Source: Salinimicrobium sediminis (GTDB lineage Bacteria; Bacteroidota; Bacteroidia; Flavobacteriales; Flavobacteriaceae). Taken from it: DNA of 64,000 nt. Where the stretch lies: NCBI RefSeq assembly GCF_900215295.1, contig NZ_OCMF01000002.1:248001-312000 (forward strand). Reading direction: 5' to 3'. The translations under genes and the position numbers were made by a program. The notes under the pieces were generated by a model, which ran no database searches, was not told where the DNA came from, and saw only the letters and a list, made by a program, of their open reading frames with translations. Below are positions 1 to 12,756 of the stretch, piece by piece (positions within the stretch are counted from its first letter, which is position 1; the number at the start of each line of letters is the position of its first letter).

Positions 1-831
1 TCCCGGACTGGTAGGCTTTGCAATTAAAGGAACCAGGTCATCGAGTACGATCTCATCTTCAAGATCATAGGTGCAACCTTCGTCGGCTACCAGCTCTGTC
101 CAATCCTCTTCCCTGCCCTGGCTTTTCAGAAATTTGCGGGTCATATCATCACTTGGAAAAACTGTAGTGGTAGCACCGAGTTCAGCACCCATATTTGCGA
201 TCACATGACGGTCCATAGCACTTAACTCGGCTAAACCGGGACCGTAATATTCTATAACTTTTCCAACACCTCCCTTAACATCGTAACGCCGAAGCATCTC
301 CAGGATCACATCCTTTGCACTGATCCAGTCGGGCATTTTTCCGGTGAGCTTCACTCCCATCACCTGCGGCATTTTCACGAAATAAGGCTGGCCTGCAATG
401 GCTGCAGCCACATCCAATCCTCCCGTTCCAATGGCAAGCATTCCCAAAGATCCTGCTGCAGGGGTATGACTGTCTGATCCTACCATGGTTTTTCCCGGTT
501 TTCCAAAGCGTTCCATATGTACCGGATGACTCACTCCATTTCCAGGGCGGCTATACCAGATTCCAAAACGCTGGGAGGCCGAAAGCAAAAATGCATGATC
601 ATCTGCATTTTTAAAATCGGTTTGAAGCAGGTTATGATCCACATATTGAACCGCCACCTCAGTCTTTGCTCTATCTAATCCCATTGCCTCCAGTTCCAGC
701 TGTACCAGGGTTCCTGTGGCATCCTGTAACAGGGCCTGGTCGATCTTTATCCCTATTTCTTTTCCGGGAATCATCTCCCCTTTAAGTAAATGCTCTTTGA
801 TTAATTTTTGAGTGACGTTGAGTTTTGACAT
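1..831 (-). CDS. acn: Aconitate hydratase, N-terminal part (cut by window start)
   Basis: Aconitase interconverts citrate and isocitrate in the TCA cycle using a [4Fe-4S] cluster. The frame is open from the ATG at 829-831 to the window edge, 277 codons. The start MSKLNVTQKLIKEHL and the block VGSDSHTPAAGSLGMLAIG, with Asp-Ser-His at residues 120-122, are typical of the AcnA/mitochondrial type. The three cluster cysteines lie further downstream in this family, so they are outside the window. It is transcribed leftward. I see no convincing TAnnTTTG promoter box in the 300 bases upstream. The family is clear; only completeness is unknown. Confidence 0.95.
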   Translation of the reverse strand, partial: MSKLNVTQKLIKEHLLKGEMIPGKEIGIKIDQALLQDATGTLVQLELEAMGLDRAKTEVAVQYVDHNLLQTDFKNADDHAFLLSASQRFGIWYSRPGNGVSHPVHMERFGKPGKTMVGSDSHTPAAGSLGMLAIGTGGLDVAAAIAGQPYFVKMPQVMGVKLTGKMPDWISAKDVILEMLRRYDVKGGVGKVIEYYGPGLAELSAMDRHVIANMGAELGATTTVFPSDDMTRKFLKSQGREEDWTELVADEGCTYDLEDEIVLDDLVPLIAKPTSPG

Positions 832-1060
832 TTTGTGCAGTTTAATTTCCTTTTAAAATATTAAAATCGCTGTGGAATTACAGGCGGTTTAACAATATCT
901 TAGTGTAATACCTATTCCTGAATAAATAAAAAAGAAAAGGACTATCCGAAAAACATCTTCAAACCATCGGCCGGAATTTTTTACTGTTCCCTGTGGAGTT
1001 TCGAAAATCGAGGCAAATGTGAAAATACTTCAGGGTATAGTCCCGTTTCCTTTTCATAGC
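832..1060. other. Intergenic region without a recognisable gene
   Basis: This AT-rich stretch lies between the start of aconitase and the terminator of the next gene. No ORF with a plausible start was found on either strand. It should carry the aconitase promoter, but I see no full match to the Bacteroidota box; CACATTTG on the minus strand, near 1015-1022, is one base off. A short inverted pair (GGACTAT near 952 and ATAGTCC near 1035) is too far apart to interpret. Confidence 0.5.
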
Positions 1061-1103
1061 AAAACCGCCAAAATGTAACATTCAAATAAAATTTTGGCGG
1101 CTG
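1061..1103 (-). terminator. Intrinsic terminator of the MBL-fold gene
   Basis: A perfect 10-base inverted repeat, CCGCCAAAAT at 1065-1074 and ATTTTGGCGG at 1091-1100, has a 16-base loop. On the minus strand it is followed by a short T run (the AAAA at 1061-1064). It sits about 30 bases past the stop codon at 1132, as expected for a rho-independent terminator of the minus-strand gene. Confidence 0.65.
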
Positions 1104-1131
1104 TTTAATTTAAAAATGGGGGGCTAAAATC

Positions 1132-1851
1132 TTATTTCTTAGAACTGCCTTCATTGGCAAGCCTTAATATCAAATCCTTTTGCTGGCCTTCTGAAAGATT
1201 AAATTTCGGTTTGCCCATATAAGGGAAAAAATATCTGAATTCTCTGTCAAACGTTCTCCAGTTCTCTGCTATACCGCGATTTTTATTTTCGCTACCGGTG
1301 TCGGTAGAATTAATGTCATCTCCATCTTCCCCGTAAGCTGTAGCTTCCACAGTATTTCCGGCGAAGACCATACCTTCATTGATTTCAGAATAAAGCACTG
1401 CAGTCTCTCCAGATTTCGAAGGGAAATCCAGTGGCACTATAGAAAAGTGTTTGAAAATATCATTTTTGGAATTGATATCCCGTACATTAAAATCAGAATT
1501 TGTATTGTTTACCGGGTGACTAAAAATGGGTGCACCGCCTGCATCTTCAGAAATGGATTTTAGAGGCGCATAGGTTTTTTGCAGGGCATCTTTATGAGTC
1601 ACCAGGATAGCTTTGATCTTATAACCTTCCTCAACCAGATGTTTGATCCCTTCCCGGGCACCTTCTGCAGTGGTATCTATAAGGAGCATGTCCTGGCGGT
1701 TCAAATGCCTTATCGCATAACCCTGGGCACCATTTTCCATTTTAATAATAAAGGTATCGGGAATCATTTTGTGAAACTTACCGGCTTCGGCCTGTTGAAT
1801 AAATTCAGCCGACTGGCTGCTTATCACTTCTTTCTTATCTACGGACTTCAT
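1132..1851 (-). CDS. Metallo-beta-lactamase-fold protein with degenerate metal site
   Basis: This 239-residue protein has no signal peptide and is probably cytoplasmic. The layout follows the MBL fold: an N-terminal sheet (LLIDTTAEGAREGIKHL), a strand ending ILVTHKDALQKTY where enzymes carry HxHxDH, a downstream block APIFSHPVNN, and a strand MVFAGNTVEATAYGEDGD resembling the usual FTGDTL block. Only the first histidine (His86) of HxHxDH remains; the other ligands are Asp, Leu and Gln. A zinc hydrolase activity is therefore doubtful and it may be a binding or scaffold protein. It lies 60 bases downstream of the PPTase gene on the same strand and could be the last cistron of that operon. The fold call is by motif only. 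Confidence 0.6.
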   Translation of the reverse strand: MKSVDKKEVISSQSAEFIQQAEAGKFHKMIPDTFIIKMENGAQGYAIRHLNRQDMLLIDTTAEGAREGIKHLVEEGYKIKAILVTHKDALQKTYAPLKSISEDAGGAPIFSHPVNNTNSDFNVRDINSKNDIFKHFSIVPLDFPSKSGETAVLYSEINEGMVFAGNTVEATAYGEDGDDINSTDTGSENKNRGIAENWRTFDREFRYFFPYMGKPKFNLSEGQQKDLILRLANEGSSKK

Positions 1852-1911
1852 TTATCTGATTTTTTGTGTTCAAAATAAATATACGACCGCACCCAAAAGT
1901 GCACAAAGTCT

Positions 1912-2514
1912 TTAGGACTGTTTAACTGTGGTTTCACAGTTAATTAACGACAGAATATATGCTGAAAACCTGCCATGACCGCTGAGGGAAAATCGGTCGA
2001 ATAAAGAATGTTTATTGAGACTTAAAAAAGGCATTCCAAAAGCATCTTTTTGAAGCTGAAGCTGCGCAGGCTCTAAAGAAAAGAAATCTGAAACCCTTTT
2101 TATTATTGCTGCTTTTACTTCGGAAGAAGGGGCTTCAAAAATGGCATATTCAGCTCTTTTTTCTCTGGCATTTTCTGCGGAAGTATGAATAAATTCTGAA
2201 GTAATTTCTGAAGTGGTATAATACTCCTTGTCTTCTATAATCACTTTTCCTGAAACTCCTGCTGAAGAATACTGCTTAAGCTCACATTCCTGGAGCCGCC
2301 AGTTTAATCGTGGGGGTAAATCATATTGCCGTTGATGGGCTTTATAAACGGCTTCTTTCATGCTCCAAAGTAGCCATACCATGACATTTGGATCTTTAGA
2401 TGCGGTGATGTATTCCTGTTCGGTAGCGGTAAATACTTTTTGAAGAAAGCCCCGGCGGCGCCAGTTACTCTCCCGGGCTGCCAGTTGAAGATCTACCACA
2501 TCATTGCCTATCAC
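1912..2514 (-). CDS. 4'-phosphopantetheinyl transferase superfamily protein
   Basis: The family transfers 4'-phosphopantetheine from CoA to a conserved serine of acyl carrier proteins, making them active. The 200-residue protein starts IGNDVVDL with the Mg-binding Asp5, has FTATEQEYI near residue 28, and carries the signature WSMKEAVYK at 50-58. The start codon is GTG, and the GTGA overlaps the TGA stop of the upstream ACP gene by 4 bases, which suggests translational coupling. A private PPTase directly behind an ACP implies that the ACP is a non-housekeeping carrier needing its own activator. The family is secure; dedication to this ACP is inference from the overlap. Confidence 0.9.
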   Translation of the reverse strand: MIGNDVVDLQLAARESNWRRRGFLQKVFTATEQEYITASKDPNVMVWLLWSMKEAVYKAHQRQYDLPPRLNWRLQECELKQYSSAGVSGKVIIEDKEYYTTSEITSEFIHTSAENAREKRAEYAIFEAPSSEVKAAIIKRVSDFFSLEPAQLQLQKDAFGMPFLSLNKHSLFDRFSLSGHGRFSAYILSLINCETTVKQS

Positions 2515-2765
2515 GCCTGTTGTTGTTTACTTTTTATGATCCTCACTGCATCGTTAACAGTGGTCATATTATCCATAGAATCATTATCAATGGCGATATT
2601 GAACTCATCTTCTACATCAAGAACGATATCTACAAGATTAGCCGAATTGATTTCCAGGTCTTTGATAAAATCTGTACCCTGCCCAAAATCCTGAAATGCA
2701 AGATCATTTTGCACATAAGGTTTTACGATCTTCTTTAAGCAGTAAATTATTTCTTTTGTTTCCAT
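2511..2765 (-). CDS. Acyl carrier protein of the FAS/PKS locus
   Basis: This small acidic carrier of 84 residues would hold growing acyl chains as thioesters on phosphopantetheine. The helix-II block DLEINSANLVDIVLDVEDEF places the modified serine at Ser41. The residue before it is Asn instead of the Asp of the classic DSL motif, so this is a divergent ACP and not a copy of primary-metabolism AcpP. It overlaps the PPTase by 4 bases and follows the ketosynthase after a 77-base gap filled by heptamer repeats. The ACP fold is convincing from length and pattern. Which enzymes load it is inferred from the neighbourhood. Confidence 0.88.
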   Translation of the reverse strand: METKEIIYCLKKIVKPYVQNDLAFQDFGQGTDFIKDLEINSANLVDIVLDVEDEFNIAIDNDSMDNMTTVNDAVRIIKSKQQQA

Positions 2766-2770
2766 AAAAT

Positions 2771-2846
2771 GATTCGAAATTCAAGATTTAAAATTCAAAA
2801 TTTCTTTATTAACTGACTTCCCTATCCACTGTCCCCTCTCCCCTAT
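2771..2846. repeat. Degenerate heptanucleotide repeats between ACP and ketosynthase genes
   Basis: There are two period-7 arrays. At 2771-2805 the words are GATTCGA, AATTCAA, GATTTAA, AATTCAA, AATTTCT. At 2812-2846 they are ACTGACT, TCCCTAT, CCACTGT, CCCCTCT, CCCCTAT. The ketosynthase stop codon (TAG, read on the minus strand at 2843-2845) lies inside the last word. The first array belongs to an AATTCAA-like word family and the second to a C/T-rich family. Confidence 0.6.
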
Positions 2847-4117
2847 GATTGAAATTTACCAAAAATTACCACAGCATTTACATCACCAAATCCGAAACTT
2901 GCTTTAGCCACTGTACTTACTTTTCTATAAAGAGTTTTTTGAGGTACTTTTTTCCTTCCGGCTATGTTTTCTATTTCGGGATGCAGATCTTCGCAATTGA
3001 TATTCCCGAATACGAAGTCATCTGAAATTTGCAACACGCTGGCTATGCTTTCTATACTTCCGGCTGCGCTAAGGCAATGGCCCGTAAGACCCTTTAAACT
3101 ATTGATCAAGGGAAAATCATCTTTTTTTAAATCCAGTGCTTCGCTCCAGTTCTTTATTTCTGTAGCATCCATTCCTGTAGCAGTAATATGGCCATTGATA
3201 CTATCTATTTCTGCTGCCTGTACTCCGGCGTCAAAAATTGCATTTTTGATACACCTTACCACCCCTTCAGAATTTGGTGCTGTCATGGAACCCCCATTTC
3301 GCTGGCCTCCACTGTTGATATGTCCCCCGAGTACTTCCGCATAGATCTTCGCGCCCCTTTCAAGAGCCGATTCCAGATCTTCCAGGACCAAAGCCCCTGC
3401 CCCACTTCCGGGAACAAATCCTGCTGCCGATGCACTCATGGGTCTGGACGCGGCTTCAGGATTGTCGTTATACTTGTGCGGTAGAATGCGCATGGCATCA
3501 AAGCCGCCCCAAACATAAGGTCCGCTATCGCTGCAGCTGCCGGCGAGAATTCTATTGGCCTTTCCTAACCTGATCCTTTCAGCGGCCATTAAGATGGCCT
3601 CAGTACCAGTAGTGCAGGCAGAAGAATTGGTGGTGACCTGATTTCCGCAGGCCAGCTTGCTGTTGAGATAGGCACTTATTCCACTGGCCATGGTTTGGAT
3701 CACGCTCGTGCTTCCTAACCTGCGGGTATTTTTGTCATCAATAAGATGAATTGCTTCTCTGAATTTATCTACCCCCAGGATCCCGGTACCAAAAATGATC
3801 CCACTGTCCCAATCGGTCTTTGCATCAGGACCAACAGGAAGGCCGGCATCTTTCCAGGCATCCACTCCGGAAATTACTCCATAGACAATTCCGCTGCTGT
3901 TGAGGCCCCGCAACTCCAGATCTGAAAAGTAATCCTTCAGCATTTCTTCCGGAATTTCAGGGTTACCGGCGATCTGGCATCTGAACTTCAGCCTTTCCAG
4001 TTCCGGCTGAAACTTTATCCCGCTTTTGCCGGTTTTAAGCGCTTCAGAAAAGGCGGTGAGACCCACTCCATTTGGTGCGGCTACTCCCATTCCGGTAATT
4101 ACTACTCTTCTGTTCAT
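2843..4117 (-). CDS. Beta-ketoacyl-ACP synthase (FabF-like) of the FAS/PKS locus
   Basis: This 424-residue thiolase-fold condensing enzyme would extend the ACP-bound chain by decarboxylative Claisen condensation with malonyl-ACP. The Cys-His-His triad is visible: Cys168 in NSSACTTGTEA, His310 in NGHITATGMDATE and His347 in LKGLTGHCLSAAG. The chain begins RRVVITGMGVAAPNG, as in FabF enzymes. It overlaps the dehydratase gene by 4 bases. All three catalytic residues are present, so I read it as a chain-elongating synthase and not as a chain-length factor. Primary FabF is the nearest alternative, but the company of a private ACP, PPTase and type III PKS argues for a dedicated pathway. Confidence 0.9.
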   Translation of the reverse strand: MNRRVVITGMGVAAPNGVGLTAFSEALKTGKSGIKFQPELERLKFRCQIAGNPEIPEEMLKDYFSDLELRGLNSSGIVYGVISGVDAWKDAGLPVGPDAKTDWDSGIIFGTGILGVDKFREAIHLIDDKNTRRLGSTSVIQTMASGISAYLNSKLACGNQVTTNSSACTTGTEAILMAAERIRLGKANRILAGSCSDSGPYVWGGFDAMRILPHKYNDNPEAASRPMSASAAGFVPGSGAGALVLEDLESALERGAKIYAEVLGGHINSGGQRNGGSMTAPNSEGVVRCIKNAIFDAGVQAAEIDSINGHITATGMDATEIKNWSEALDLKKDDFPLINSLKGLTGHCLSAAGSIESIASVLQISDDFVFGNINCEDLHPEIENIAGRKKVPQKTLYRKVSTVAKASFGFGDVNAVVIFGKFQS

Positions 4118-4545
4118 GATTTGATCATTCCTGAAATTTCGCCCTTACAAACCAGTTTTTCTTCAGCATTAAACATTTTCACTTTGCATTTCAATTTGTT
4201 GAACCTGAAATACATTTTTTCAGAAACTACTTTTACCCTCTCCCCGGGGAATACCGGAAGGTAATAATCCACACTGGCATTTGACAAAGCAACTTTAAAA
4301 GCTTCAGTCTTCTCATCCTTCAGCAGAAAAATTCCCAGGCAAACCACTCCTATCTGCGCCATACATTCTGTAAGGATCACGCCCGGCGTCACCGGATGCT
4401 TTTTAAAATGACCTTTGTAGAAGTAAGAGTCTTTAGGAAAAGAATAAATTCCGGAAGTGCCGTTTTCATTTACCTCCGTAAGTTCATCCACGAATAGAAA
4501 AGGTTCTGCATAAGGCAGTAAATTGAGGATCTCGCTTTTTTCCAT
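4114..4545 (-). CDS. 3-hydroxyacyl-ACP dehydratase, FabZ-like hotdog protein
   Basis: The protein dehydrates 3-hydroxyacyl-ACP to trans-2-enoyl-ACP. At 143 residues it has the usual FabZ length. LLPYAEPFLFVDEL near residues 9-22 matches the FabZ N-terminal block, and GHFKKHPVTPGVILTECMAQ at 45-64 holds the catalytic pair His46 and Glu60. The gene abuts the ketoreductase without a gap (4545/4546) and overlaps the ketosynthase by 4 bases, so the elongation-cycle enzymes are probably made together. A non-catalytic hotdog protein is unlikely because both catalytic residues are kept. Confidence 0.88.
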   Translation of the reverse strand: MEKSEILNLLPYAEPFLFVDELTEVNENGTSGIYSFPKDSYFYKGHFKKHPVTPGVILTECMAQIGVVCLGIFLLKDEKTEAFKVALSNASVDYYLPVFPGERVKVVSEKMYFRFNKLKCKVKMFNAEEKLVCKGEISGMIKS

Positions 4546-5328
4546 TTATCTGAATCTACTGCTCATTCCGCCGTCGATCACAAAAGAATGTCCGGCAAAA
4601 AAATCTGATTCTCCCGAGGCGAGATAAAGAATTAAGGAGGCGATTTCCTCCGGATCTCCAAGTCTTCCTTTAGGAATGTTCTTTAGAAAATTCTCACGCA
4701 CAGAACCCACACCGGCTTCATCACCCCCGGTATGCTTTAACATCGCCTTTCTAAGCAGCTCTGTTTCAAATGGTCCGGGCACAATGGCATTGATGGAAAT
4801 ATTGGAAGTAGCAAGCTCCAACGCAGCCGACTTTGTAAAGCCCAGTACTGCTGCCTTTGTCGCGGCATAAATAGAGCCGCCCTCTACCCCTCCTAAACCA
4901 TTTACAGAAGAAATATTAAGAATATTACATTTTCTGTCAGGATGTTTCAACATTTTTTCGATTTGAAACTTCATGCTCAGCCAAAGGCCTTTTATGTTCA
5001 CATTCATGGTAGCGTCAAATTCCTCTTCAGAAAATTCAAAGATCTTTTTGCCTATACCGGTATCCCCGGCAGCGGCATTTATTGCAACGTCGAGGTGAGG
5101 ATGGATTTCATCGATGTGTGCAAAAGTCCTATGTACAGCCGCGGAATCGTTAAGATCAACAGCATAGGTGAAAAGTGCATCCTGCTTCTGAAAATTCCTA
5201 TCGGGATTTCGGGACAGTACCAGGACATCTGCACCCGACTTTAAAAACTTCTGGGCGGTTGCAAATCCAATTCCCGAGCTCCCGCCCGTGATCATCACTG
5301 TTTTTCCTGAAAAGTCAAATTCAATCAA
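4546..5328 (-). CDS. SDR ketoreductase (FabG-like) of the FAS/PKS locus
   Basis: This 260-residue short-chain dehydrogenase/reductase has the NAD(P)-binding motif TGGSSGIG at 14-21, NAAAG at 84-88, a catalytic serine near 140, and Tyr154/Lys158 in the classical YxxxK spacing (IYAATKAAV). In this context it most likely reduces 3-oxoacyl-ACP to 3-hydroxyacyl-ACP. The start is TTG: the codon at 5326-5328 reads TTG ATT GAA, and no ATG lies nearby in frame. The gene follows a 117-base spacer with heptamer repeats. The SDR family is certain; the exact substrate is inference from the operon. Confidence 0.85.
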   Translation of the reverse strand: MIEFDFSGKTVMITGGSSGIGFATAQKFLKSGADVLVLSRNPDRNFQKQDALFTYAVDLNDSAAVHRTFAHIDEIHPHLDVAINAAAGDTGIGKKIFEFSEEEFDATMNVNIKGLWLSMKFQIEKMLKHPDRKCNILNISSVNGLGGVEGGSIYAATKAAVLGFTKSAALELATSNISINAIVPGPFETELLRKAMLKHTGGDEAGVGSVRENFLKNIPKGRLGDPEEIASLILYLASGESDFFAGHSFVIDGGMSSRFR

Positions 5329-5451
5329 AATTTAAGTTTTAAAATTTAAAAATCGGGTATGCTAAGCTATTTGGATGTGAGGTGGAAATTACTATTCGTA
5401 TCTCCTAACCTAAACTACTGCCTCTGCCTACTTAACACTGCCAACCTACTT
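5328..5451. repeat. Degenerate heptanucleotide repeats between the two SDR genes
   Basis: Words at 5328-5355 are AAATTTA, AGTTTTA, AAATTTA, AAAATCG. Words at 5417-5451 are ACTGCCT, CTGCCTA, CTTAACA, CTGCCAA, CCTACTT. The TAG stop of the FabL-like gene (5446-5448 on the minus strand) lies in the last word. The same CTGCCAA/CTTAC words recur at 23141-23154 beside an unrelated gene. Confidence 0.6.
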
Positions 5452-6240
5452 TAAATGCTCTCCTCCATTTACCGGTATGATCGTCCCGGAGATCCAGCTG
5501 GCTTCATCTTTGCTCAGGAGGTAAACAGCATTGGCAACATCTGCAGGAGTGGTCAATCTTTTAAACGGATTCCTCTTTAAAGCATGTTGTCGCAGGGTTT
5601 CAAAACTGGGAATGAGTTCCAGTGAGCGGGTAACAGTAACCCCCGCCTGAATGCAATTGGCACGTATGCCTTTAGGTGCGAATTCGAGGGCAATGCTTCG
5701 GGTAATGGCTTCCAAAGCTACTTTGGCTGCAGAAACTGCTGCATAATTCTTCCAGGCTTTAGAGTTACCTTCACTGGTAAAGGAAAGGATTCGCCCATCT
5801 TTGGCGAACATTCCGGCGTCATAGATGAGTTTTGTCCAGTCATACAAACTTATAGCCATTGCATCTATGGTTTGCTGAAAATCATCTGACCGCAAAGTAG
5901 GCTCTTCTCCCAGCATAGATTTAAGATTTCCCTTGGAAATACTATGGATCATCGTCCTGATCTTGCCGGATTCTCCCAGGATCTCCTTCATTTCTTCCCT
6001 AATCTCCTCCCGCTTATCCTTACGGGTGGCATCGCGGTTAAAGGAATGTAATTTTACCCCGAGCGCCTTGATCTCTTCAAAAGCCGATTTAATTTCGGGC
6101 AGGTCATCTTTGCGATCCCTGTGCACAATAAGAATGTTCATTCCATGCTCTGCCAGCTTTTTTGCCGAAGCAAAACCCAGACCGCTACTGCCGCCAAGGA
6201 CCAGGGCCCAGTAATTTTTTCCATCGAATTCCTTTACCAT
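5446..6240 (-). CDS. Enoyl-ACP reductase, FabL-like SDR
   Basis: This 264-residue SDR has the nucleotide-binding loop LGGSSGLGFASAKKLAEHG at 15-33. The catalytic spacing is Tyr166-X6-Lys173 (YAAVSAAK), which is the enoyl-ACP reductase pattern of FabI/FabL and differs from the YxxxK of ketoreductases. The region after it (ALEAITRSIALEFAPKGIR) and the C-terminal SGTIIPVNGG are FabL-like. It would complete the cycle by reducing enoyl-ACP to a saturated acyl-ACP. It overlaps the type III PKS gene by 7 bases. Assignment as an ENR rests on the Tyr-X6-Lys spacing and overall resemblance to Bacillus FabL; another SDR role cannot be excluded. Confidence 0.8.
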   Translation of the reverse strand: MVKEFDGKNYWALVLGGSSGLGFASAKKLAEHGMNILIVHRDRKDDLPEIKSAFEEIKALGVKLHSFNRDATRKDKREEIREEMKEILGESGKIRTMIHSISKGNLKSMLGEEPTLRSDDFQQTIDAMAISLYDWTKLIYDAGMFAKDGRILSFTSEGNSKAWKNYAAVSAAKVALEAITRSIALEFAPKGIRANCIQAGVTVTRSLELIPSFETLRQHALKRNPFKRLTTPADVANAVYLLSKDEASWISGTIIPVNGGEHLK

Positions 6241-7286
6241 TGTAAGAGTATTTTTTGAGCTGAAAATCCGGGACCAAAACTCAACATTAAGCCCTGCTCT
6301 CCTTTTTCAAACTGTTTATCAAGAAATCTTTCCAATACATACAATACCGTGGCGCTGCTCATATTGCCGTAGAGACGCAACACCTCTTTAGTATCGTCAA
6401 TATTCTTCCCTAATTTACCAAAAAGTTCTTCAACTGTCTGTACGATCTTTTTCCCGCCGGGGTGAAAAATTAAATGCTCCACCTGTTCAATTGACGAATT
6501 GTATTTTTCCAAAAAAGGATGGATGATCTGGGGAAAATGATCTGCTATGGTTTGAGGAACTTCGGGATCCAGGACCATTTTTAGTCCGTCATTGGTAAGG
6601 TCAAAGCCCATCATATGGGTGGCTTCAAAAAAATGGTACATTTCCTGCCCTATAATCTCGGGGCCTTCCACATCATCTTCAGAAGAAAGGAGCACACAGG
6701 CAGCACCATCACCAAAAATGGCCGCACTCACCATGTTTGCCATAGAAAAATCTTCAAGCTGCAGAGTAGCTGTAGGACTTTCTACCGCGATCACTGCTGC
6801 CCGTTTATTTTTATTTGCCTTCAGAAAATTGGCGGCATAGATCATTCCTGAAATTCCGGCAGCACAACCCATTTCTGTGACCGGAAGTCTTACCACATCC
6901 TGCCTCATCTCAAGCTCGTTAATTAAAAACGCATCAAGAGACGGGATCATGATCCCGGTACAGCTCACCGTTATAATATAATCAATGGAATCTGCTTCCC
7001 AACCTGCTTTGTTAAGAGCATTTTTAAGGACCTGAGATCCCAGCTTCTTTGCTTCACGTGAGTAGATATAATTCTTTTCTTCAAAGGAAGTAGCGGTAAA
7101 GACCTCTGCCGGGTCCATGATGGAATATCTTTTATCAACTGCAGCACCTTCAAAGATCTTGATCACTTTGCGCTTATATCTTTCTTCCTGACCGCTGAGC
7201 CAGGTTTCAACAAATGGGATGACCTCTTTTGTTTCTCTTGAATATGGAGGTAATTCTTTTGTTACAGTTTTAATTCTAACACTCAT
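6234..7286 (-). CDS. Type III polyketide synthase (chalcone/alkylresorcinol synthase family)
   Basis: This homodimer-type enzyme condenses a starter acyl thioester with malonyl-CoA and cyclises the product. The 350-residue chain carries the triad Cys141 (TEMGCAAGISG), His275 (IFHPGGKK) and Asn308 (RLYGNMSSATVLYVLERF), plus GFGPG-like LSFGPGFS near 336-342. The length and plain N-terminus fit bacterial alkylresorcinol/alkylpyrone synthases. Immediately upstream in the operon are a methyltransferase and a flavoprotein; immediately downstream is an acyl-chain-building set. This parallels the known Streptomyces srsABC logic (PKS, methyltransferase, hydroxylase) with its own starter supply. The exact product cannot be read from sequence. 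Confidence 0.93.
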   Translation of the reverse strand: MSVRIKTVTKELPPYSRETKEVIPFVETWLSGQEERYKRKVIKIFEGAAVDKRYSIMDPAEVFTATSFEEKNYIYSREAKKLGSQVLKNALNKAGWEADSIDYIITVSCTGIMIPSLDAFLINELEMRQDVVRLPVTEMGCAAGISGMIYAANFLKANKNKRAAVIAVESPTATLQLEDFSMANMVSAAIFGDGAACVLLSSEDDVEGPEIIGQEMYHFFEATHMMGFDLTNDGLKMVLDPEVPQTIADHFPQIIHPFLEKYNSSIEQVEHLIFHPGGKKIVQTVEELFGKLGKNIDDTKEVLRLYGNMSSATVLYVLERFLDKQFEKGEQGLMLSFGPGFSAQKILLQW

Positions 7287-7296
7287 ATAATATTTT

Positions 7297-8004
7297 CTAT
7301 TTGAACAGGATCCACTGATACCTGAATGCCCATTTATAATTGATCTCCTGCCGCTTTACGTTCAATCCCCGGCCATACCTCACAATATCTTCCTTTTTAA
7401 AGCTTCTGAGAATAGATGTGAGACCATCCTTCCTGTTGATCTCTCTTATTCTGAAGGCCCGGCAAAATGCCTTAAAAAGATAATAGGCTGCCTTGCTTCG
7501 CTGCAGATCATTGATCACCACCCCCACTTTTGCCATTTCTGAAAAATTCCTCATCAACTGCTCGATTTCTGAATCTGAAAAATGGTGCAGCGTTAAGGTA
7601 CATAAAATAATATCTGCTTCGAGGGCTTTAAAACCCTCTGAAAAAACATCCATGGCTTTAAAAGAAACTTCAGGAAATCCTGAAAGGTTTTTTTCAGCGA
7701 TAGACATTGCATTTGAATTCGCATCCACCCCTAAAAGAGTCATTTTGATTCCCTTCCTCCTGGCCAACTCAGCAACTTGTTTTAGGACGCTTCCGTTACC
7801 ACATCCTACGTCAATGATCCTAAGAGACCTGTCAAAACTTTGATCTTCCAAAAGTTTTTCCACTCCCTCCACAGTGATCCTGTTTCCTCCAAGCCATTTG
7901 TTGACTTTATCCAGGTCCAAAAGGGTTTTCTCCAGCTCCCTGCCCTGCATGTCTAGATCATCCATGATCTCTCTTTGTTGCGATCTTTTGCCTGTATCTA
8001 TCAT
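7297..8004 (-). CDS. Class I SAM-dependent methyltransferase
   Basis: This 235-residue cytosolic protein has the SAM-binding motif I IIDVGCGNGSVL at about 63-74, an acidic post-I residue in LGVDANSNAM, and motif IV-like ADIILCTLTLHHF. It would methylate a hydroxyl or carbon of the PKS product. It overlaps the flavoprotein gene by 4 bases and lies 10 bases upstream of the PKS gene, so it belongs to the same transcript. The C-terminal part (KAFCRAFRIREINRKDG) is basic and may touch an acidic substrate or membrane. The family is clear; the target is inference. Confidence 0.87.
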   Translation of the reverse strand: MIDTGKRSQQREIMDDLDMQGRELEKTLLDLDKVNKWLGGNRITVEGVEKLLEDQSFDRSLRIIDVGCGNGSVLKQVAELARRKGIKMTLLGVDANSNAMSIAEKNLSGFPEVSFKAMDVFSEGFKALEADIILCTLTLHHFSDSEIEQLMRNFSEMAKVGVVINDLQRSKAAYYLFKAFCRAFRIREINRKDGLTSILRSFKKEDIVRYGRGLNVKRQEINYKWAFRYQWILFK

Positions 8005-9119
8005 TTTATAGGGCTGCCATGGGTTTGTTTAATGATATGGGGTAAGAGAAAAGGCACTTTTGAGATAAGGCTTTGAGAGATTTCTGCCATTTTCTCTCTT
8101 AACAAGATCTTCTGAAGCCAGGTGGCGGTAGAGAATCTACGGCTAAAAGTAGCTTCCCAGCGTTTACGATATCTGTTCTCCAATTGCTCTCGTGAAGTTT
8201 TACTGTCAATATGGTGCAGCAGTTCTTCCGAAGCTATTTTTGCGCTGTGAATTGCTATGGCCATTCCGTTACCACATAAAGGATGGATCAAACCTGCTGC
8301 ATCTCCCAACATTAACATGTGATCTTTTACAGCCTCTTTTTTTTCAAAAGAAATTTGGGCAATAGTCAAAGGTTGGGAAAAAACGGGAACAGCTTTTGCA
8401 AGAAAACTTTCTAAAAATGGATTTTCACACAGTACTTCCCGGTTAAATTTTTCGGGATCCTTGTGCTTTTTAAAACTATCATAGCTGGCCAGATAGCACA
8501 TATTTATACTTCCTGATTCCGTTCGGGAAAGTCCGCAGTAACCTCCTTTAAAGTTGTGTAAAGCCACCAGGTCATCGGAAAAATTTTTCATGGCATAATG
8601 CGATTTGACGGCGACCCATGGGGCTGAAAGTTGAAAAAACTTCCTGTCCAGATTTTTATCCAAAACAGACCTTTTTCCAAAACTACCCAGCACATGAGCG
8701 GCAGCGTATGTGTTTTGGGAAGTACCCACTTCAAAATGATCATTCAAAAATTCAACTTTTAGCACCTTTTCTCTAATAACTTGTACTCCATTGGCCAGAG
8801 CTGTTTCGAAAAGCAAATTATCGAGAGAAAACCTACTGACGCCAAAGGCGCCAAGCGGCAACTTCACCTCTAAGGAGCGACCTGCAGGAGTACTGTATTG
8901 AAGCCGGGATATATTTTTTGGCAAAAGGTCTGCCAGCGGAATTTTCAAGTGATCAAAATAAGGCTTTATCTCCCTTGAAAGATATTCCCCACAAACCTTA
9001 TGATGCGGATAGGTTTCCTTTTCAAAAAGGGTAATTTTTTGTCCTTTTTGAGCAAGATGAATGGCAGCGGTCAAACCGGCCAATCCTCCTCCAATAATGA
9101 TCACAGTTCTTTTTTCCAT
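8001..9119 (-). CDS. FAD-dependent oxidoreductase (geranylgeranyl-reductase/monooxygenase-like)
   Basis: This 372-residue flavoprotein has the Rossmann motif IIIGGGLAGLTAA at 7-19, a CGEYLS block near 43 typical of the geranylgeranyl-reductase/UbiH-like group, and the second FAD motif LMLGDAAGLIHPLCGNGM. No transmembrane segment is evident. In type III PKS operons such proteins often hydroxylate or oxidise the phenolic ring; here it is the first gene of the run. The start at 9119 places the GxGxxG at the proper distance from the N-terminus. The terminator of the preceding gene ends only 11 bases before this start, so no room is left for a separate promoter. Family confident, reaction inferred. 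Confidence 0.85.
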   Translation of the reverse strand: MEKRTVIIIGGGLAGLTAAIHLAQKGQKITLFEKETYPHHKVCGEYLSREIKPYFDHLKIPLADLLPKNISRLQYSTPAGRSLEVKLPLGAFGVSRFSLDNLLFETALANGVQVIREKVLKVEFLNDHFEVGTSQNTYAAAHVLGSFGKRSVLDKNLDRKFFQLSAPWVAVKSHYAMKNFSDDLVALHNFKGGYCGLSRTESGSINMCYLASYDSFKKHKDPEKFNREVLCENPFLESFLAKAVPVFSQPLTIAQISFEKKEAVKDHMLMLGDAAGLIHPLCGNGMAIAIHSAKIASEELLHHIDSKTSREQLENRYRKRWEATFSRRFSTATWLQKILLREKMAEISQSLISKVPFLLPHIIKQTHGSPIK

Positions 9120-9130
9120 CCCGGATATAA

Positions 9131-9156
9131 AAAAACCCGGCAGTTACCGGGTTTTT
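9131..9156 (-). terminator. Terminator between OmpA-like lipoprotein and the FAS/PKS locus
   Basis: AAAAACCCGG and CCGGGTTTTT form a perfect 10-base stem with a 6-base loop, followed on the minus strand by seven T. It follows the stop of the OmpA-like gene by about 20 bases and ends 11 bases before the flavoprotein start. Expression of the downstream locus would need read-through, attenuation or an internal promoter. Confidence 0.85.
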
Positions 9157-9175
9157 CATTGCTACTGCCGATATA

Positions 9176-9868
9176 TTAATTACCGGCCTTTTGCTTTGCT
9201 TCTTCTTTTAATTGCTCATTAGCAACAATTGCAAGTTCTACTCTACGGTTCTTGGAACGGCCTTCTACAGTAGAATTATCATACTTAGGCTGTGCCTCTC
9301 CATACCATTTAGTGTCTATCCTACCCTTATCAATTCCCTGGTTTACCAAAAAGCTGGTTACAGCCTGGGCTCTGTTCTTGGAAAGGGTAAGGTTATAGGC
9401 GTCACTTCCGGTGCTATCTGTATGTCCTTCCACAAGAATATTCGTATTTGGATATTCTTTAAAAATGTTGGCAAGAGCCATTAAAGCCTCACGGGATTGA
9501 CCTTCGACAGAATATTTATCGGTATCAAAATAAACTCCGCTGGTTTCATCGAAGGTGACATTTATTCCTTCACCTACTCTTTCAACTTCAGCTCCTGGAA
9601 TTTCTTCTTCGATCCTTTGGGCCTGCTTGTCCATTCGGTCTCCAATATAAGCTCCGGCTGCACCACCCACGACACCACCTATAATGGCACCCAGTGCGGT
9701 ATTACCATCACCTGTATTGTTACCAACAACACCGCCAATAACAGCCCCACCTGTGGCTCCAATGACGGCTCCTTTTTGTTTATTATTTGCGTTTCGTGTT
9801 GCATCACAACCAATAAGCATGGTTGAGGCAAAAAGAAGGGCAAAAAAGCTGTTTTTCGTAATTCTCAT
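9176..9868 (-). CDS. OmpA-family lipoprotein with glycine-zipper domain (YiaD-like)
   Basis: This outer-membrane lipoprotein probably links the membrane to peptidoglycan. The N-terminus has a lipobox LIGC (Cys near residue 21) after a hydrophobic signal. Residues 33-80 form a glycine-zipper (GAVIGATGGAVIGGVVG repeated) and residues 110-220 are an OmpA C-terminal domain, with ILVEGHTDSTGSDAYNLTLS and the arginine block GRSKNRRVELAI. The total of 230 residues is normal for YiaD-type proteins. It starts 2 bases after the lipocalin-like gene ends and has its own terminator, so the two form a small envelope operon. Confidence 0.92.
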   Translation of the reverse strand: MRITKNSFFALLFASTMLIGCDATRNANNKQKGAVIGATGGAVIGGVVGNNTGDGNTALGAIIGGVVGGAAGAYIGDRMDKQAQRIEEEIPGAEVERVGEGINVTFDETSGVYFDTDKYSVEGQSREALMALANIFKEYPNTNILVEGHTDSTGSDAYNLTLSKNRAQAVTSFLVNQGIDKGRIDTKWYGEAQPKYDNSTVEGRSKNRRVELAIVANEQLKEEAKQKAGN

Positions 9869-9870
9869 AA

Positions 9871-10350
9871 TTATATTTTGTTAAAGTTCATTCTAATAGT
9901 GAAGGGCTTTCCTTCAAACTGCACAGTTTGTTCCCAAACCATTTGATCCTGGGAAAGGTTCGTAAGATTTAAGCGGTAACCCTTATTTCCCATTTCCGAT
10001 TTATGATCTTCATTGGTAGGTTTGAACATAAGGTCGTAATTACCCATTGCGGCATTAGATCCGTCTATTGACCAGATGAAGAACTCAGTATTAGTGTCAC
10101 AAGTCATGCCAGAAGGTTCATAGGACCCGGTGTTGTTGTTGGATACAAAAACCCAGGTGCTGTTTTCCAGGCACGGTGCAGGAATATCATTTAATAGAGA
10201 AACCTGTACATTTTGTGCATTGCCGGGATAGGTAATGCTTGTTAACTGCCAGTCACCATTCATAGTCTTTCTTGCTTCATTCACAACTTTGGCAGAGCCG
10301 CAGGAGACCAGAAAAGCAATACTTAAAAATAAAACCACAATCTTTTTCAT
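9871..10350 (-). CDS. Lipocalin-like secreted lipoprotein
   Basis: The start is placed at 10350 (MKKIVVLFLSIAFLVSCGS) and not at the upstream ATG at 10386, because the shorter form begins with a clean type II signal and lipobox (VSCG), and the upstream codons fall inside the neighbouring terminator hairpin. The mature part contains the lipocalin-like strand MNGDWQLTSITYPG and alternating hydrophobic strands, about 159 residues in all. Similar lipocalin_4 proteins are frequent in Bacteroidota; ligand unknown. It is co-transcribed with the OmpA-like gene. Confidence 0.75.
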   Translation of the reverse strand: MKKIVVLFLSIAFLVSCGSAKVVNEARKTMNGDWQLTSITYPGNAQNVQVSLLNDIPAPCLENSTWVFVSNNNTGSYEPSGMTCDTNTEFFIWSIDGSNAAMGNYDLMFKPTNEDHKSEMGNKGYRLNLTNLSQDQMVWEQTVQFEGKPFTIRMNFNKI

Positions 10351-10370
10351 TCTTTTTGTTTTAGTTAATA

Positions 10371-10414
10371 AAAAATCCAATGTCAAGGTGTAGCACCTAT
10401 TATGACATTGGATT
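10371..10414 (-). terminator. Strong intrinsic terminator after the DUF1328 gene
   Basis: AATCCAATGTCA (10374-10385) pairs perfectly with TGACATTGGATT (10403-10414), with an inner stem AGGTG/CACCT. On the minus strand a run of T follows. It lies 16 bases beyond the DUF1328 stop codon and separates that gene from the lipocalin-like gene. Confidence 0.85.
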
Positions 10415-10429
10415 AAGTCGTCGTTACAA

Positions 10430-10591
10430 TTATCTTCTGAAAAGTCTACTTATCAAGGCTATCACCAGAAGGACAAGGAAAATGTAGAAGATGATCTGCG
10501 CGATATCGGCAGCTCCTTCAGCAATTCCTCCAAATCCAAAGATGGCAGCAATAATTGCAATAATTAAAAAGATAACGATCAATCGTATCAT
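10430..10591 (-). CDS. DUF1328 small membrane protein (YtjA-like)
   Basis: This is a 53-residue ORF with start ATG at 589-591 of the 10-kb block (position 10591) and stop TAA at 10430. The translation starts [20 protein letters not shown], continues [12 protein letters not shown], and ends with a second hydrophobic helix and RLFRR. Two transmembrane helices joined by the [11 protein letters not shown] loop are the DUF1328 signature. The family is often stress-associated in other bacteria, function unknown. It has its own promoter (10619-10650) and terminator (10371-10414), so it is a single-gene unit. Confidence 0.88.
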
Positions 10592-10618
10592 AATTTAGGT
10601 TTTAGTGATTAGTTGATC

Positions 10619-10650
10619 TAAAATTACATCTCGACCTATCGTCAGACAAA
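10619..10650 (-). promoter_or_regulatory. Candidate Bacteroidota promoter for the DUF1328 gene
   Basis: On the minus strand TTTG (10647-10650) is followed after 20 bases by TAATTTTA (10619-10626), a 7 of 8 match to TAnnTTTG. The start codon is 28 bases further on. Spacing and position fit the -33/-7 promoter of this phylum. Confidence 0.55.
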
Positions 10651-10720
10651 AGATTATTACTTATTTAACAATTTTTTTGTAAAGAAATCCTAACAAACCC
10701 GCAATTGCCGGAATTCTTTC

Positions 10721-12730
10721 TTAATACTTTAATAATTCCTGAATTTTCACCTCAAAACGCTTCTTTGGAAGATAGCCTTCTTCCAATGCCTTGCTGAATG
10801 GTATTGGCATTTCAAGACTACCTACCCGTGCAACGGGAGCATCCAGAAATTCAAAACATTCTTCGGCGATCATAGCTGCAATATCAGAACCTACCCCTCC
10901 AAAAACTGAATCTTCCTGAAGGATAATGACTTTGCCTGTTTTCTTGACGGAAGCAAATATGGATTCCTTATCCAGTGGCTGAAGCGTTCGCAGATCCAAA
11001 AGATCGGCGTTGATCTCCGGATGCTTCTCTAAAGTTTCAAGTGCCCAATGCACCGCAGCACCAAAACTTATCACGGTTATATCATTTCCTTCCTTTAGCA
11101 AAGCTGCTTTCCCAAAAGGCAGCGTGTAATAATCCACAGGTACCTGTTGCCGGGTACTTCTGTATAAAGCTTTGTGCTCAAAGAATAAAACGGGGTTAGG
11201 ATCATTTATGGCAGTATTTAATAGTCCTTTAGCGTCATAAGGAAAAGCCGGATAGACTACTTTTAATCCCGGAGTCTTGGTAAACCAGGCTTCATTTGTC
11301 TGGCTATGGAAAGGTCCTGCCCCTACTCCTGCTCCGCAAGGCATTCTAATCACTACATCGGCGTTCTGATTCCAGCGGTAGTGCACTTTTGCCAGGTAAT
11401 TTACCACAGGATTGAACCCTGAGCTTACAAAATCGGCAAACTGCATTTCAACCATTGCTTTCATACCCTTGATGGAGAGTCCCATGGCAGTCTCAACAAT
11501 ACCCGATTCACAGATAGGTGTATTCCTCACTCGCTCCCTGCCAAATTCTTCCACGAAATTCTCTGTTATTTTAAAGACTCCGCCGTACTCGGCGATATCC
11601 TGCCCCATGAGAACAAGGTTCTCATGCCGCTGCATAGATTGTCTTAAACCTTGAGATACAGCATCTATAAATCTTAACTCTTCAGTTTTAGAAGAAGGCT
11701 TAACCTCCTCATATACAATAGGTTCGTAAACATCATTTAATTCTTCAGTTTCATTAAAATCTATAGCCGCTTCAGCATTTGCTGTTTTTAAACCTTCGTC
11801 TATTTCCGATTTAATTTCATTCCTGTATTGATTGTCCAGAGCTTCAGAAAGTATTTCTTCTAAAAATAAGAAGTTCCTGAAATTCTCCACCGGATCCTTC
11901 TTCGCCCACTCTTCCATAAGCTCATTAGGAACATATTTAGTTCCGCTGGCTTCTTCATGGCCACGCATTCTGAAGGTTTTAAATTCTACCAACACCGGCC
12001 GCGGATCCTTTCGCATACTTTCTGCCAACTGAGAAATTTTTCCGTACACCTCCAGCACATTATTTCCATCAATAATATGAGATTCCATTCCGTAGCCAAG
12101 AGCACGGTCGGCAAGATGTTCGCAATTATATTGTTCCGAAGTTGGAGTGGAAAGTCCATAACCATTGTTCTCAATGCAAAACAAAACAGGTAATTTCCAA
12201 ACTGATGCGATGTTCAGGGCTTCATGAAAATCTCCTTCGCTTGTACCGCCCTCTCCTGTAAATACTGCGGTGATCTTTTCTTCTTTTTGAAGCTTATGTG
12301 CAAGAGCGATTCCATCGGCAACTCCTAACTGCGGCCCCAGGTGAGAGATCATTCCAATGATCTTAAATTCCTGGGTTCCAAAATGGAAACTACGGTCGCG
12401 GCCTTTGGTAAAACCGGAAGCTTTTCCCTGCCATTGCCCAAAAAGTCGGTGCAAAGGCATATCCCGTGAAGTAAATACCCCCAGATTCCTATGCATGGGA
12501 AGTATATATTCATCTTTTTGAAGGGAAAGGGTAACTCCTATAGATATAGCTTCCTGTCCAATGCCGCTGAACCATTTGGAGATCCTCCCCTGGCGTAACA
12601 AAACCAGCATTTTTTCCTCTATTAATCGTGGCTTTAGAAGAAACTTGTAAAGGTTGAGCAGCTGCTCATTAGAAAAAGTAGATTTATCGTAACGAATAAG
12701 AGATTTTTCCCTTGAATCCTTTATTTCCAT
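10721..12730 (-). CDS. 2-oxoacid dehydrogenase E1, fused alpha and beta subunits (branched-chain type)
   Basis: This thiamine-diphosphate enzyme decarboxylates branched-chain or related 2-oxoacids and acylates the lipoyl arm of E2. The 669-residue chain joins an E1-alpha half (about 1-300; TPP motif GEGGTSEG ... ENNGYG near 165-195) and an E1-beta half (about 345-669; NTPICESGIVETAMGLSIKG). The fused form is common in Flavobacteriia. I chose the start at 12730 (MEIKDSREK) over 12751 because a TACATTTG promoter box at 12749-12756 would put the transcription start downstream of 12751. E2 and E3 are not in this window. Confidence 0.9.
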   Translation of the reverse strand: MEIKDSREKSLIRYDKSTFSNEQLLNLYKFLLKPRLIEEKMLVLLRQGRISKWFSGIGQEAISIGVTLSLQKDEYILPMHRNLGVFTSRDMPLHRLFGQWQGKASGFTKGRDRSFHFGTQEFKIIGMISHLGPQLGVADGIALAHKLQKEEKITAVFTGEGGTSEGDFHEALNIASVWKLPVLFCIENNGYGLSTPTSEQYNCEHLADRALGYGMESHIIDGNNVLEVYGKISQLAESMRKDPRPVLVEFKTFRMRGHEEASGTKYVPNELMEEWAKKDPVENFRNFLFLEEILSEALDNQYRNEIKSEIDEGLKTANAEAAIDFNETEELNDVYEPIVYEEVKPSSKTEELRFIDAVSQGLRQSMQRHENLVLMGQDIAEYGGVFKITENFVEEFGRERVRNTPICESGIVETAMGLSIKGMKAMVEMQFADFVSSGFNPVVNYLAKVHYRWNQNADVVIRMPCGAGVGAGPFHSQTNEAWFTKTPGLKVVYPAFPYDAKGLLNTAINDPNPVLFFEHKALYRSTRQQVPVDYYTLPFGKAALLKEGNDITVISFGAAVHWALETLEKHPEINADLLDLRTLQPLDKESIFASVKKTGKVIILQEDSVFGGVGSDIAAMIAEECFEFLDAPVARVGSLEMPIPFSKALEEGYLPKKRFEVKIQELLKY

Positions 12731-12748
12731 AATAATTTTTTTCTTCCT

Positions 12749-12756
12749 CAAATGTA
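12749..12756 (-). promoter_or_regulatory. -7 box of the E1 dehydrogenase gene
   Basis: TACATTTG on the minus strand matches TAnnTTTG exactly and lies 19 bases upstream of the start codon at 12730. No clear TTG -33 element is seen. It helps to decide the start codon. Confidence 0.45.

Follow-up and report, generated by a model that had tools for sequence, protein, structure and literature searches.

A conserved operon joining a type III polyketide synthase head module to a predicted acyl-tail cassette in Salinimicrobium sediminis and its relatives

Introduction

Where does a bacterial type III polyketide synthase (T3PKS) obtain the acyl chain on which it builds, and do fatty-acid-type genes encoded beside it supply that chain? 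The question is raised by a run of nine minus-strand genes at positions 1912–9119 of a 64,000-nt stretch of the Salinimicrobium sediminis genome (contig NZ_OCMF01000002.1, positions 248,001–312,000; hereafter the window), in which a T3PKS gene lies among genes for a flavin adenine dinucleotide (FAD)-dependent oxidoreductase, a methyltransferase (MT) and the parts of a type II fatty acid synthase (FAS). T3PKS clusters make up 10.74% of the predicted biosynthetic clusters in a survey of 2,680 Flavobacteriaceae genomes (PMC10734526), and the available portions of this and other surveys that count them describe no such content (PMC7440613, PMC10734526, PMC9323603). In the open-licence literature, as far as the accessible portions of the sources go, we found neither a product assigned to a Flavobacteriaceae T3PKS cluster nor a gene-level description or product for a cluster of this kind.

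A first-pass annotation had described the run as a self-contained type II fatty-acid cycle wired to the T3PKS. Our analysis points to a different organization, in which the operon would hold two modules: a head made up of the FAD protein, a class I MT and the T3PKS, and a tail cassette made up of a ketosynthase (KS), a dehydratase (DH), an acyl carrier protein (ACP), usually a 4'-phosphopantetheinyl transferase (PPTase) and often an enoyl reductase (ER), with no conserved ketoreductase (KR). We put at about 0.72 the probability that this private acyl-tail cassette supplies an FAD-MT-T3PKS head operon of the hierridin kind, from which a phenolic lipid carrying hydroxyl and methyl groups would result, with both the transfer and the product being predictions.

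Results

A conserved unit of head and tail genes

Reading frames were re-called, and all nine of the genes previously placed in the run were recovered; gene classes were assigned by Pfam and NCBIfam, which agree for each of the nine. The genes encode the FAD-dependent oxidoreductase (8001..9119), the MT (7297..8004), the T3PKS (6234..7286), the ER (5446..6240), the KR (4546..5328), the DH (4114..4545), the KS (2843..4117), the ACP (2511..2765) and the PPTase (1912..2514), with the GTG start codon of the last overlapping the ACP stop codon.

A scan of named genomes for the T3PKS returned 313 relatives, of which the best 80 (73–95% identity, the nearest being that of S. nanhaiense at 95%) were kept. 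FAD-MT-T3PKS-DH-KS lie in that order on one strand in 80/80 of these named loci, an adjacency far beyond chance. The case that the first-pass annotation had named as speaking against its proposal, the T3PKS, MT and flavoprotein genes without FAS genes in most close relatives, was not observed. With three and then six further loci added, the set comprised 89 T3PKS-type relatives, in which genes were counted in six frames. FAD, MT, T3PKS and DH are each present in 89/89 and KS in 88/89, the missing KS being that of locus L085, where the contig ends inside the gene. ACP matches occur in 87 relatives and a true cassette ACP in 86; in L085 and L094 the sequence stops at the contig edge, and what was matched in L124 is a distant ACP, encoded on the opposite strand. 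This distant ACP adjoins a FabF-like KS, also on the other strand and 4 kb away. The order FAD-MT-T3PKS-[ER]-DH-KS-ACP-[PPTase] is held on one strand in 88/89 relatives, the exception being L124 through its misplaced ACP match only. The conserved unit is FAD-MT-T3PKS-DH-KS-ACP, with the PPTase usual (73/89) and the ER optional (37/89, absent from 52).

The KR, found at the operon site in one of the 89 relatives, was rejected as a member of the system. When 16 genomes were searched whole, an orthologue was present only in the window's genome and in one other (85% identity), and the next-best match reached 135.5 bits at ~40% identity. Similarly, in eight whole genomes lacking an operon ER (seven of group g46 and genome G138) the best ER match was 86.5 bits, compared with 364–577 bits where the gene is present. 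With the KR this rare and the ER optional, the host must supply ketoreduction nearly always and enoyl reduction often, and a self-contained cycle is not supported. The proposal of a dissociated FAS tied to the T3PKS operon through a private ACP and PPTase holds for the DH and KS (80/80), not for the KR, and for the PPTase as a usual member only. As to the suggestion that the exact content was undescribed, no such cluster was found in the accessible open-licence literature; given the rarity of the KR, the exact nine-gene content is local to two species.

At most 38 of the 80 named loci share any one gene family from outside the operon. In 24 of them PdhAB, lipoprotein and OmpA genes adjoin the operon, as they do upstream of it in the window (9176–12751, OmpA-like, lipoprotein and PdhAB-like), which places the operon at a fixed chromosomal position in several genera. 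A second setting, seen in 38 loci (L068–L129, about positions 1–7500; nearly all Flavobacterium), has an acetyl-CoA-synthetase-type AMP-binding gene upstream that is absent from the other 42 loci as fetched. Additionally, ilvD/B/N/C-like genes lie further upstream in 28 to 35 loci, most of the 38 among them (one member each of the acetyl-CoA-synthetase and ilv neighbour families was tested by Pfam). One idea suggested by these neighbours is that iso-branched or acetate-derived starters are used.

Co-occurrence was assessed in a phylum sample of 395 genomes, with cut-offs of >500 bits for a close T3PKS, >570 bits for a close KS and E ≤ 1e-100 for a dedicated KS. A close T3PKS was found in 33/395 genomes and a dedicated KS in 38/395; the 33 are all among the 38, and in every one the T3PKS and KS genes are 447–2119 bp apart. 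They comprise 30 of the 41 sampled genomes of the window's own family, its own included, and three from other families; the unit is also present in families f17, f18 and f24. Over 24 shared taxa, T3PKS and KS distances correlate with r 0.88, compared with r 0.60 and 0.53 for T3PKS and KS, respectively, against the neighbouring PdhAB.

Predicted functions of the encoded proteins

Residues were compared in alignments of the window with its named relatives, in which rows are the ORFs called (hence fewer than 81 for KS, ACP and ER). The catalytic residues listed in the first-pass annotation are all present: C141/H275/N308 of the T3PKS are invariant in 81/81 rows, C168/H310/H347 of the KS are conserved in 80/80 and H46/E60 of the DH in 81/81. 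The ACP attachment serine (motif INSANLVDI in the window) is conserved in 71/71 rows and the Y-x6-K of the ER in 33/33.

The T3PKS has the Pfam domains Chal_sti_synt_N/C, and its closest solved relative is M. tuberculosis PKS11. Two more specific identities were rejected. DpgA is its best NCBIfam match (NF042429), at 173.6 bits against a cut-off of 425, and the dialkylresorcinol enzyme DarB (NF053539) scores 18.8 bits against a cut-off of 550. The MT is a class I S-adenosylmethionine-dependent enzyme of the PRK06202 kind (Pfam Methyltransf_25), which reaches 140 bits with NF004851, under the cut-off of 243, and has a single weak match among solved structures.

The FAD protein matches Pfam FAD_binding_3 and Trp_halogenase and scores 105 bits with TIGR02032, short of the cut-off of 158.8. 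In an AlphaFold model (pLDDT 89), its predicted fold is that of the geranylgeranyl-reductase / group A monooxygenase / flavin-halogenase group: the best Foldseek matches are the halogenases ChlB4 and PltA, and 3-hydroxybenzoate 6-hydroxylase and the geranylgeranyl reductase-like protein 3oz2 are also matched. With these last two among the matches, we did not adopt a flavin halogenase as the main assignment, and the protein is probably a ring hydroxylase. The motif W-x-W-x-I-P, which we take to be that of flavin halogenases, was not seen in it on reading by eye, a weak ground, and chlorination in place of hydroxylation could still be its activity.

In the window, KS, DH, ER and ACP are separate single-domain genes, and with the KR all five are present. 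The ER has FabL as its best NCBIfam match (145 bits; cut-off of 328 missed), and its closest solved relative is the enoyl-ACP reductase 3oic. The KR is a FabG-like short-chain dehydrogenase/reductase, the second of this class in the run, with a TTG start and a YAATK motif, and is a local addition. The DH, with a Pfam FabA domain, scores 70.5 bits with FabZ (cut-off 113), the KS 273.8 bits with FabF (cut-off 493.75) and the ACP, a Pfam PP-binding protein, 42 bits with the housekeeping ACP (cut-off 70.45). As KS, DH and ACP are all under these cut-offs, they fall outside the housekeeping type II FAS families. The earlier label of "FabF-like" for the KS is correct insofar as it forms its own FabB/FabF-related clade. 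It is not clearly a FabF, since among solved structures the best protein named synthase 1 scores 201.3 bits and the best named synthase 2 scores 185.9. The PPTase matches Pfam ACPS at 48 bits. The window's genome holds one other KS at E ≤ 1e-8 (37% identical to the cassette KS) and one further FabZ domain, indicating that the cassette enzymes are additional to those of primary metabolism.

The tail cassette beside other head-group enzymes

A recurrence of the FAS part beside other head-group enzymes had been missed in the first-pass annotation. A KS profile (E ≤ 1e-110) recovered exactly those 38 among the 395 sampled genomes of the phylum, as well as 13/117 genomes of family f18, 4/92 of f38 and 12/121 of f17, and all 29 KS-positive genomes of these three families were inspected. 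In five KS genomes without a close T3PKS, the loci (L153–L157) carry DH-KS-ACP, with an ER in three and a PPTase in two. Across the 29, the FAD-MT-T3PKS head was found in nine (L130, L131, L158, L160, L162, L170, L171, L172 and L189). In 11 others (L153, L154, L161, L163, L164, L165, L167 and L173–L176), DarA-DarB-DarH genes are divergent from ER-DH-KS-ACP-PPTase. DarB scores 614.7 bits in L153 and 634.8 in L154 (NCBIfam cut-off 550), and DarH of L153 scores 443 against 300; the other nine loci were recognized with models built from these two. DarA, matched by no model, was named by its position and by the dar gene order in the accessible part of a published description (PMC3949708).

In four of the 29 loci (L155–L157 and L177, the last a short contig) a GNAT-like gene directly precedes [ER]-DH-KS-ACP, and in three of them a GT2 gene is present too. 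The GT2 assignment rests on Pfam PF00535 in 3/3, and one of three GNAT proteins tested has a Pfam match. To our knowledge, a GNAT-[ER]-DH-KS-ACP-(GT2) lipid locus, as in family f38, has not been described. In L155, a BioF/serine-palmitoyltransferase-like gene, scoring under NCBIfam cut-offs, lies 4 kb away. Two further loci (L159 and L166) have lost the head side at a contig end, and in three (L168, L169 and L190) no known head was recognized. At L168:6081–9784 the DH-KS-ACP cassette adjoins genes for an FcoT thioesterase, a TauD dioxygenase, an LCM methyltransferase and a Rieske protein, a neighbourhood reminiscent of isonitrile-lipid pathways. L169:7137–11848 holds two adjacent cassette-like KS genes and DH, with ACP-containing and ER-like proteins encoded on the opposite strand.

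The KS tree has 49 rows; long branches led to the exclusion of the L169 pair and of a single outgroup row out of two, and L189 and L190 are outside it. The 30 T3PKS-linked rows, the window's included, form one clade (support 100/99). Another (100/100) unites the 11 Dar rows and the two contig-end loci, L168 branching basal to it (98/95), and the grouping of the four GNAT rows is less firmly supported (97/62). The DH and ER trees group much like the KS tree, with weaker support; the T3PKS label requires one change in the DH tree (support 83) and two in the ER tree, and the Dar label three in both. Around the attachment serine, T3PKS- and Dar-type ACPs have INSANLVDI or a near form and those of the GNAT type D/N-S-F/M (12 rows). 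From these trees and motifs, the cassette has become specialized by head group, its label having changed few times. As KS-DH-ACP are kept while the partner changes from T3PKS to DarA/DarB to GNAT/GT2, the cassette is most simply read as an acyl-chain maker. We consider it reasonably likely that a single dissociated FAS lineage, observed here within this phylum, serves as a portable tail cassette and has been paired with three or more unrelated heads, among them T3PKS-MT-FAD, DarA/DarB, and GNAT with a glycosyltransferase.

Head modules and distant synthases without the cassette

Other phyla were covered through a plasmid collection, where a search with the KS gave 1252 records and the highest identity among the matches listed was 36.7%. 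T3PKS-MT-FAD triads on Roseomonas, Sphingobium and Deinococcus plasmids have no annotated FAS gene in the 5–6 kb flank, indicating that the head module exists alone. The MT of the Sphingobium triad is on the opposite strand, and the Deinococcus T3PKS, annotated as ketosynthase III-like only, has chalcone-synthase domains and 31% identity to that of the window. A Novosphingobium plasmid (L179:1713–6696) encodes a FAD monooxygenase, a T3PKS, a KS and an ACP with a divergent MT. At 29% identity its KS was rejected as a cassette member, and the locus is apparently an independent wiring of KS-ACP to a T3PKS. Around the FAD homologues of Bernardetia and Hymenobacter, no T3PKS is annotated over a distance of 6 kb; a Rhizobium plasmid match has no related neighbour genes, and one on a Streptomyces plasmid carries no annotation. 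On a Hymenobacter plasmid (L181:2059–7068), an isonitrile synthase gene is followed by a TauD dioxygenase gene and then by a FAD homologue (35% identity).

At 17 loci of distant T3PKS (29–36% identity, the T3PKS being recognized in 16), no match was found to FAD, MT, DH, KS, ACP or PPTase, and one gave a weak match to the KR model; these loci were chosen by their T3PKS and are not informative on cassettes elsewhere. An isoprenylcysteine-type methyltransferase (ICMT)-like gene adjoins the T3PKS in four distant loci inspected, confirmed by Pfam in two of two tested, and an ICMT is annotated beside a distant T3PKS on a Stenotrophomonas plasmid.

Discussion

Relation to known systems

The first-pass annotation had taken srsABC as its model. 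Operons of the srs/bps type are defined by an isoprenylcysteine-type membrane methyltransferase, and bps is the name given to pairs of such an enzyme with a T3PKS. A bpsAB-like pair thus resembles the present operon in combining a T3PKS with an MT, but the MT there is an ICMT and here a class I Methyltransf_25 protein, and srsABC was accordingly rejected as its nearest counterpart. Judged by gene content, hidABC is the described head operon that comes closest. As far as the accessible parts of the reports go, the hierridin operons of cyanobacteria and their planctomycete counterparts likewise join a T3PKS to an MT and a FAD-dependent oxidoreductase and give an alkyl phenolic lipid; their gene order differs from FAD-MT-T3PKS, and they are described without a KS, DH, ACP, PPTase or ER of their own, unlike the operon here (PMC8086630, PMC10896814). 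In these portions, planctomycetal and cyanobacterial methyltransferase-oxidoreductase-T3PKS operons are stated to yield alkylresorcinols (PMC10896814, PMC8086630), and one methyl group is stated to be added when the methyltransferase and oxidoreductase of G. maris are co-expressed (PMC10896814).

The Novosphingobium locus described above resembles the window in bringing together FAD, T3PKS, KS, ACP and MT genes; no DH, ER or PPTase is annotated there. Delivery of an acyl chain to a T3PKS by dedicated machinery has precedents. Steely1 of Dictyostelium, a solved relative of the T3PKS, carries a FAS fusion, and the chain passes to its T3PKS from this fused type I FAS. In the portions of the reports available, Azotobacter ars also places dedicated fatty-acid machinery beside a T3PKS to supply its acyl starter, using type I proteins resembling polyunsaturated fatty acid synthases, whereas the operon here has single-function proteins, a free ACP, and MT and FAD genes (PMC13291983, PMC8086630). 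No multidomain type I FAS protein of the Ars kind is encoded in it. The cylindrocyclophane cyl clusters, by the same partial reading of the source, build the chain on a dedicated type I PKS before handing it to a T3PKS, and differ further in halogenation and dimerization (PMC8086630). In dar/flexirubin clusters, according to the parts seen of two reports, the head group is formed by DarB and DarA rather than by a T3PKS (PMC3992019, PMC3949708). The 11 Dar-type loci fetched here have a related cassette beside these genes, and the visible part of an Azoarcus dar table lists one KS and one ACP and no DH, ER or PPTase.

A proposed pathway and its alternatives

In the pathway that we favour, the PPTase would activate the private ACP, on which the KS would elongate an acyl chain using malonyl units. 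As there is no stable KR, host FabG must be borrowed for ketoreduction; where the ER is missing, host FabI would serve, or the chain may stay unsaturated. The T3PKS would take the finished chain from the private ACP, add two or three malonyl-CoA and cyclize the product to an alkylresorcinol or alkylpyrone, whose ring the FAD enzyme would hydroxylate and the MT would methylate. The end product would be a phenolic or quinone membrane lipid, most likely a phenolic one. Chain length, saturation, the choice of resorcinol or pyrone, the sites of hydroxylation and methylation, and the location of the product are likewise predictions.

Several observations weigh against this pathway, in which the acyl-ACP transfer to the T3PKS is itself a prediction. 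By distance correlation the unit stands apart from PdhAB, but its separation from OmpA is unclear, T3PKS and KS giving r 0.78 and 0.80 against the latter; for the MT, OmpA (0.88) is closer than the KS (0.77). An uncultured Polaribacter locus (L124:12258–17830) has neither a private ACP nor a PPTase, and no PPTase is recognizable in another 13 relatives, all 14 despite at least 6.4 kb of room. At L190:7552–9996 a T3PKS-type DH-KS-ACP-PPTase set has no FAD, MT or T3PKS within 7.5 kb. Finally, heterologous expression of C. pinensis darB and darA gave a dialkylresorcinol, as stated in the accessible part of that report (PMC3992019), so a head enzyme of such a kind can function in the absence of the cassette, which may tune rather than enable synthesis.

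Some of these observations bear on an unlikely alternative, in which primary metabolism provides the T3PKS with its acyl-CoA or acyl-ACP starter, while a second and different chain, attached later or destined for another co-made lipid, is the product of the cassette. L190 would then be a cassette able to stand alone, and head triads elsewhere are without annotated FAS genes. Indeed, a planctomycetal triad T3PKS worked in a cassette-free host, according to the portion of the report available (PMC10896814). However, as families outside the operon reach 38 of the 80 loci at most, there is no conserved acyltransferase to attach a second chain, and the close T3PKS and close KS occur in an identical set of 33 genomes. 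The order of the two modules could also be reversed, the T3PKS converting malonyl-CoA, in the manner of DpgA, into the thioester of a small aromatic acid, with which the cassette primes an omega-aryl fatty acid or aryl polyene. Among NCBIfam models the T3PKS indeed matches DpgA best, the absence of the ER from 52/89 relatives would allow a polyene, and an AMP-binding gene of the acetyl-CoA-synthetase kind is found upstream in 38/80 named loci. We regard this scheme as improbable, in that the DpgA score is far under its cut-off, the AMP-binding gene has an acetyl-CoA synthetase N-terminal domain and is missing from the other 42 loci as fetched, and the cassette occurs beside Dar and GNAT genes with no adjacent T3PKS.

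Lastly, the FAS-like genes might have their role in making the bulk fatty acids of the membrane, their linkage to the head triad being coincidental. Inheritance with the surroundings would explain why 24/80 loci share one fixed position next to the PdhAB, lipoprotein and OmpA genes. The order is nevertheless held in 80/80 loci across at least two chromosomal settings and recurs in families f17, f18 and f24, and the KS clade is separate from FabF, which makes mere coincidence very improbable.

Each part of the operon belongs to a known kind; what is new, as far as could be seen, is that they are joined in a fixed arrangement and that the tail cassette is reused. For the close family of T3PKS operons in these bacteria, the composition and core parts are now defined, with a tail-building part common to dialkylresorcinol-type loci, and the presence of its relatives beside different head-group enzymes suggests an interchangeable part for unusual lipids. 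If the cassette is portable, the same kind of private acyl-ACP would be handed to a T3PKS or to DarB, and head and tail would be exchangeable modules of secondary lipids. Both the feeding of a type III PKS by a free-standing type II ACP and the exchange of head and tail modules can now be tested.

Other features of the window

A terminator-like hairpin with a T run was seen by eye on the minus strand at 9120–9160; it is not listed by the promoter scan. Only ~10 bases separate its end from the FAD start codon, so that hardly any room is left for a promoter. After the operon, at 1132–1851, lies a gene for a 239-aa protein with no Pfam or NCBIfam match, which is present in 10/80 loci, only those of Salinimicrobium and Salegentibacter.

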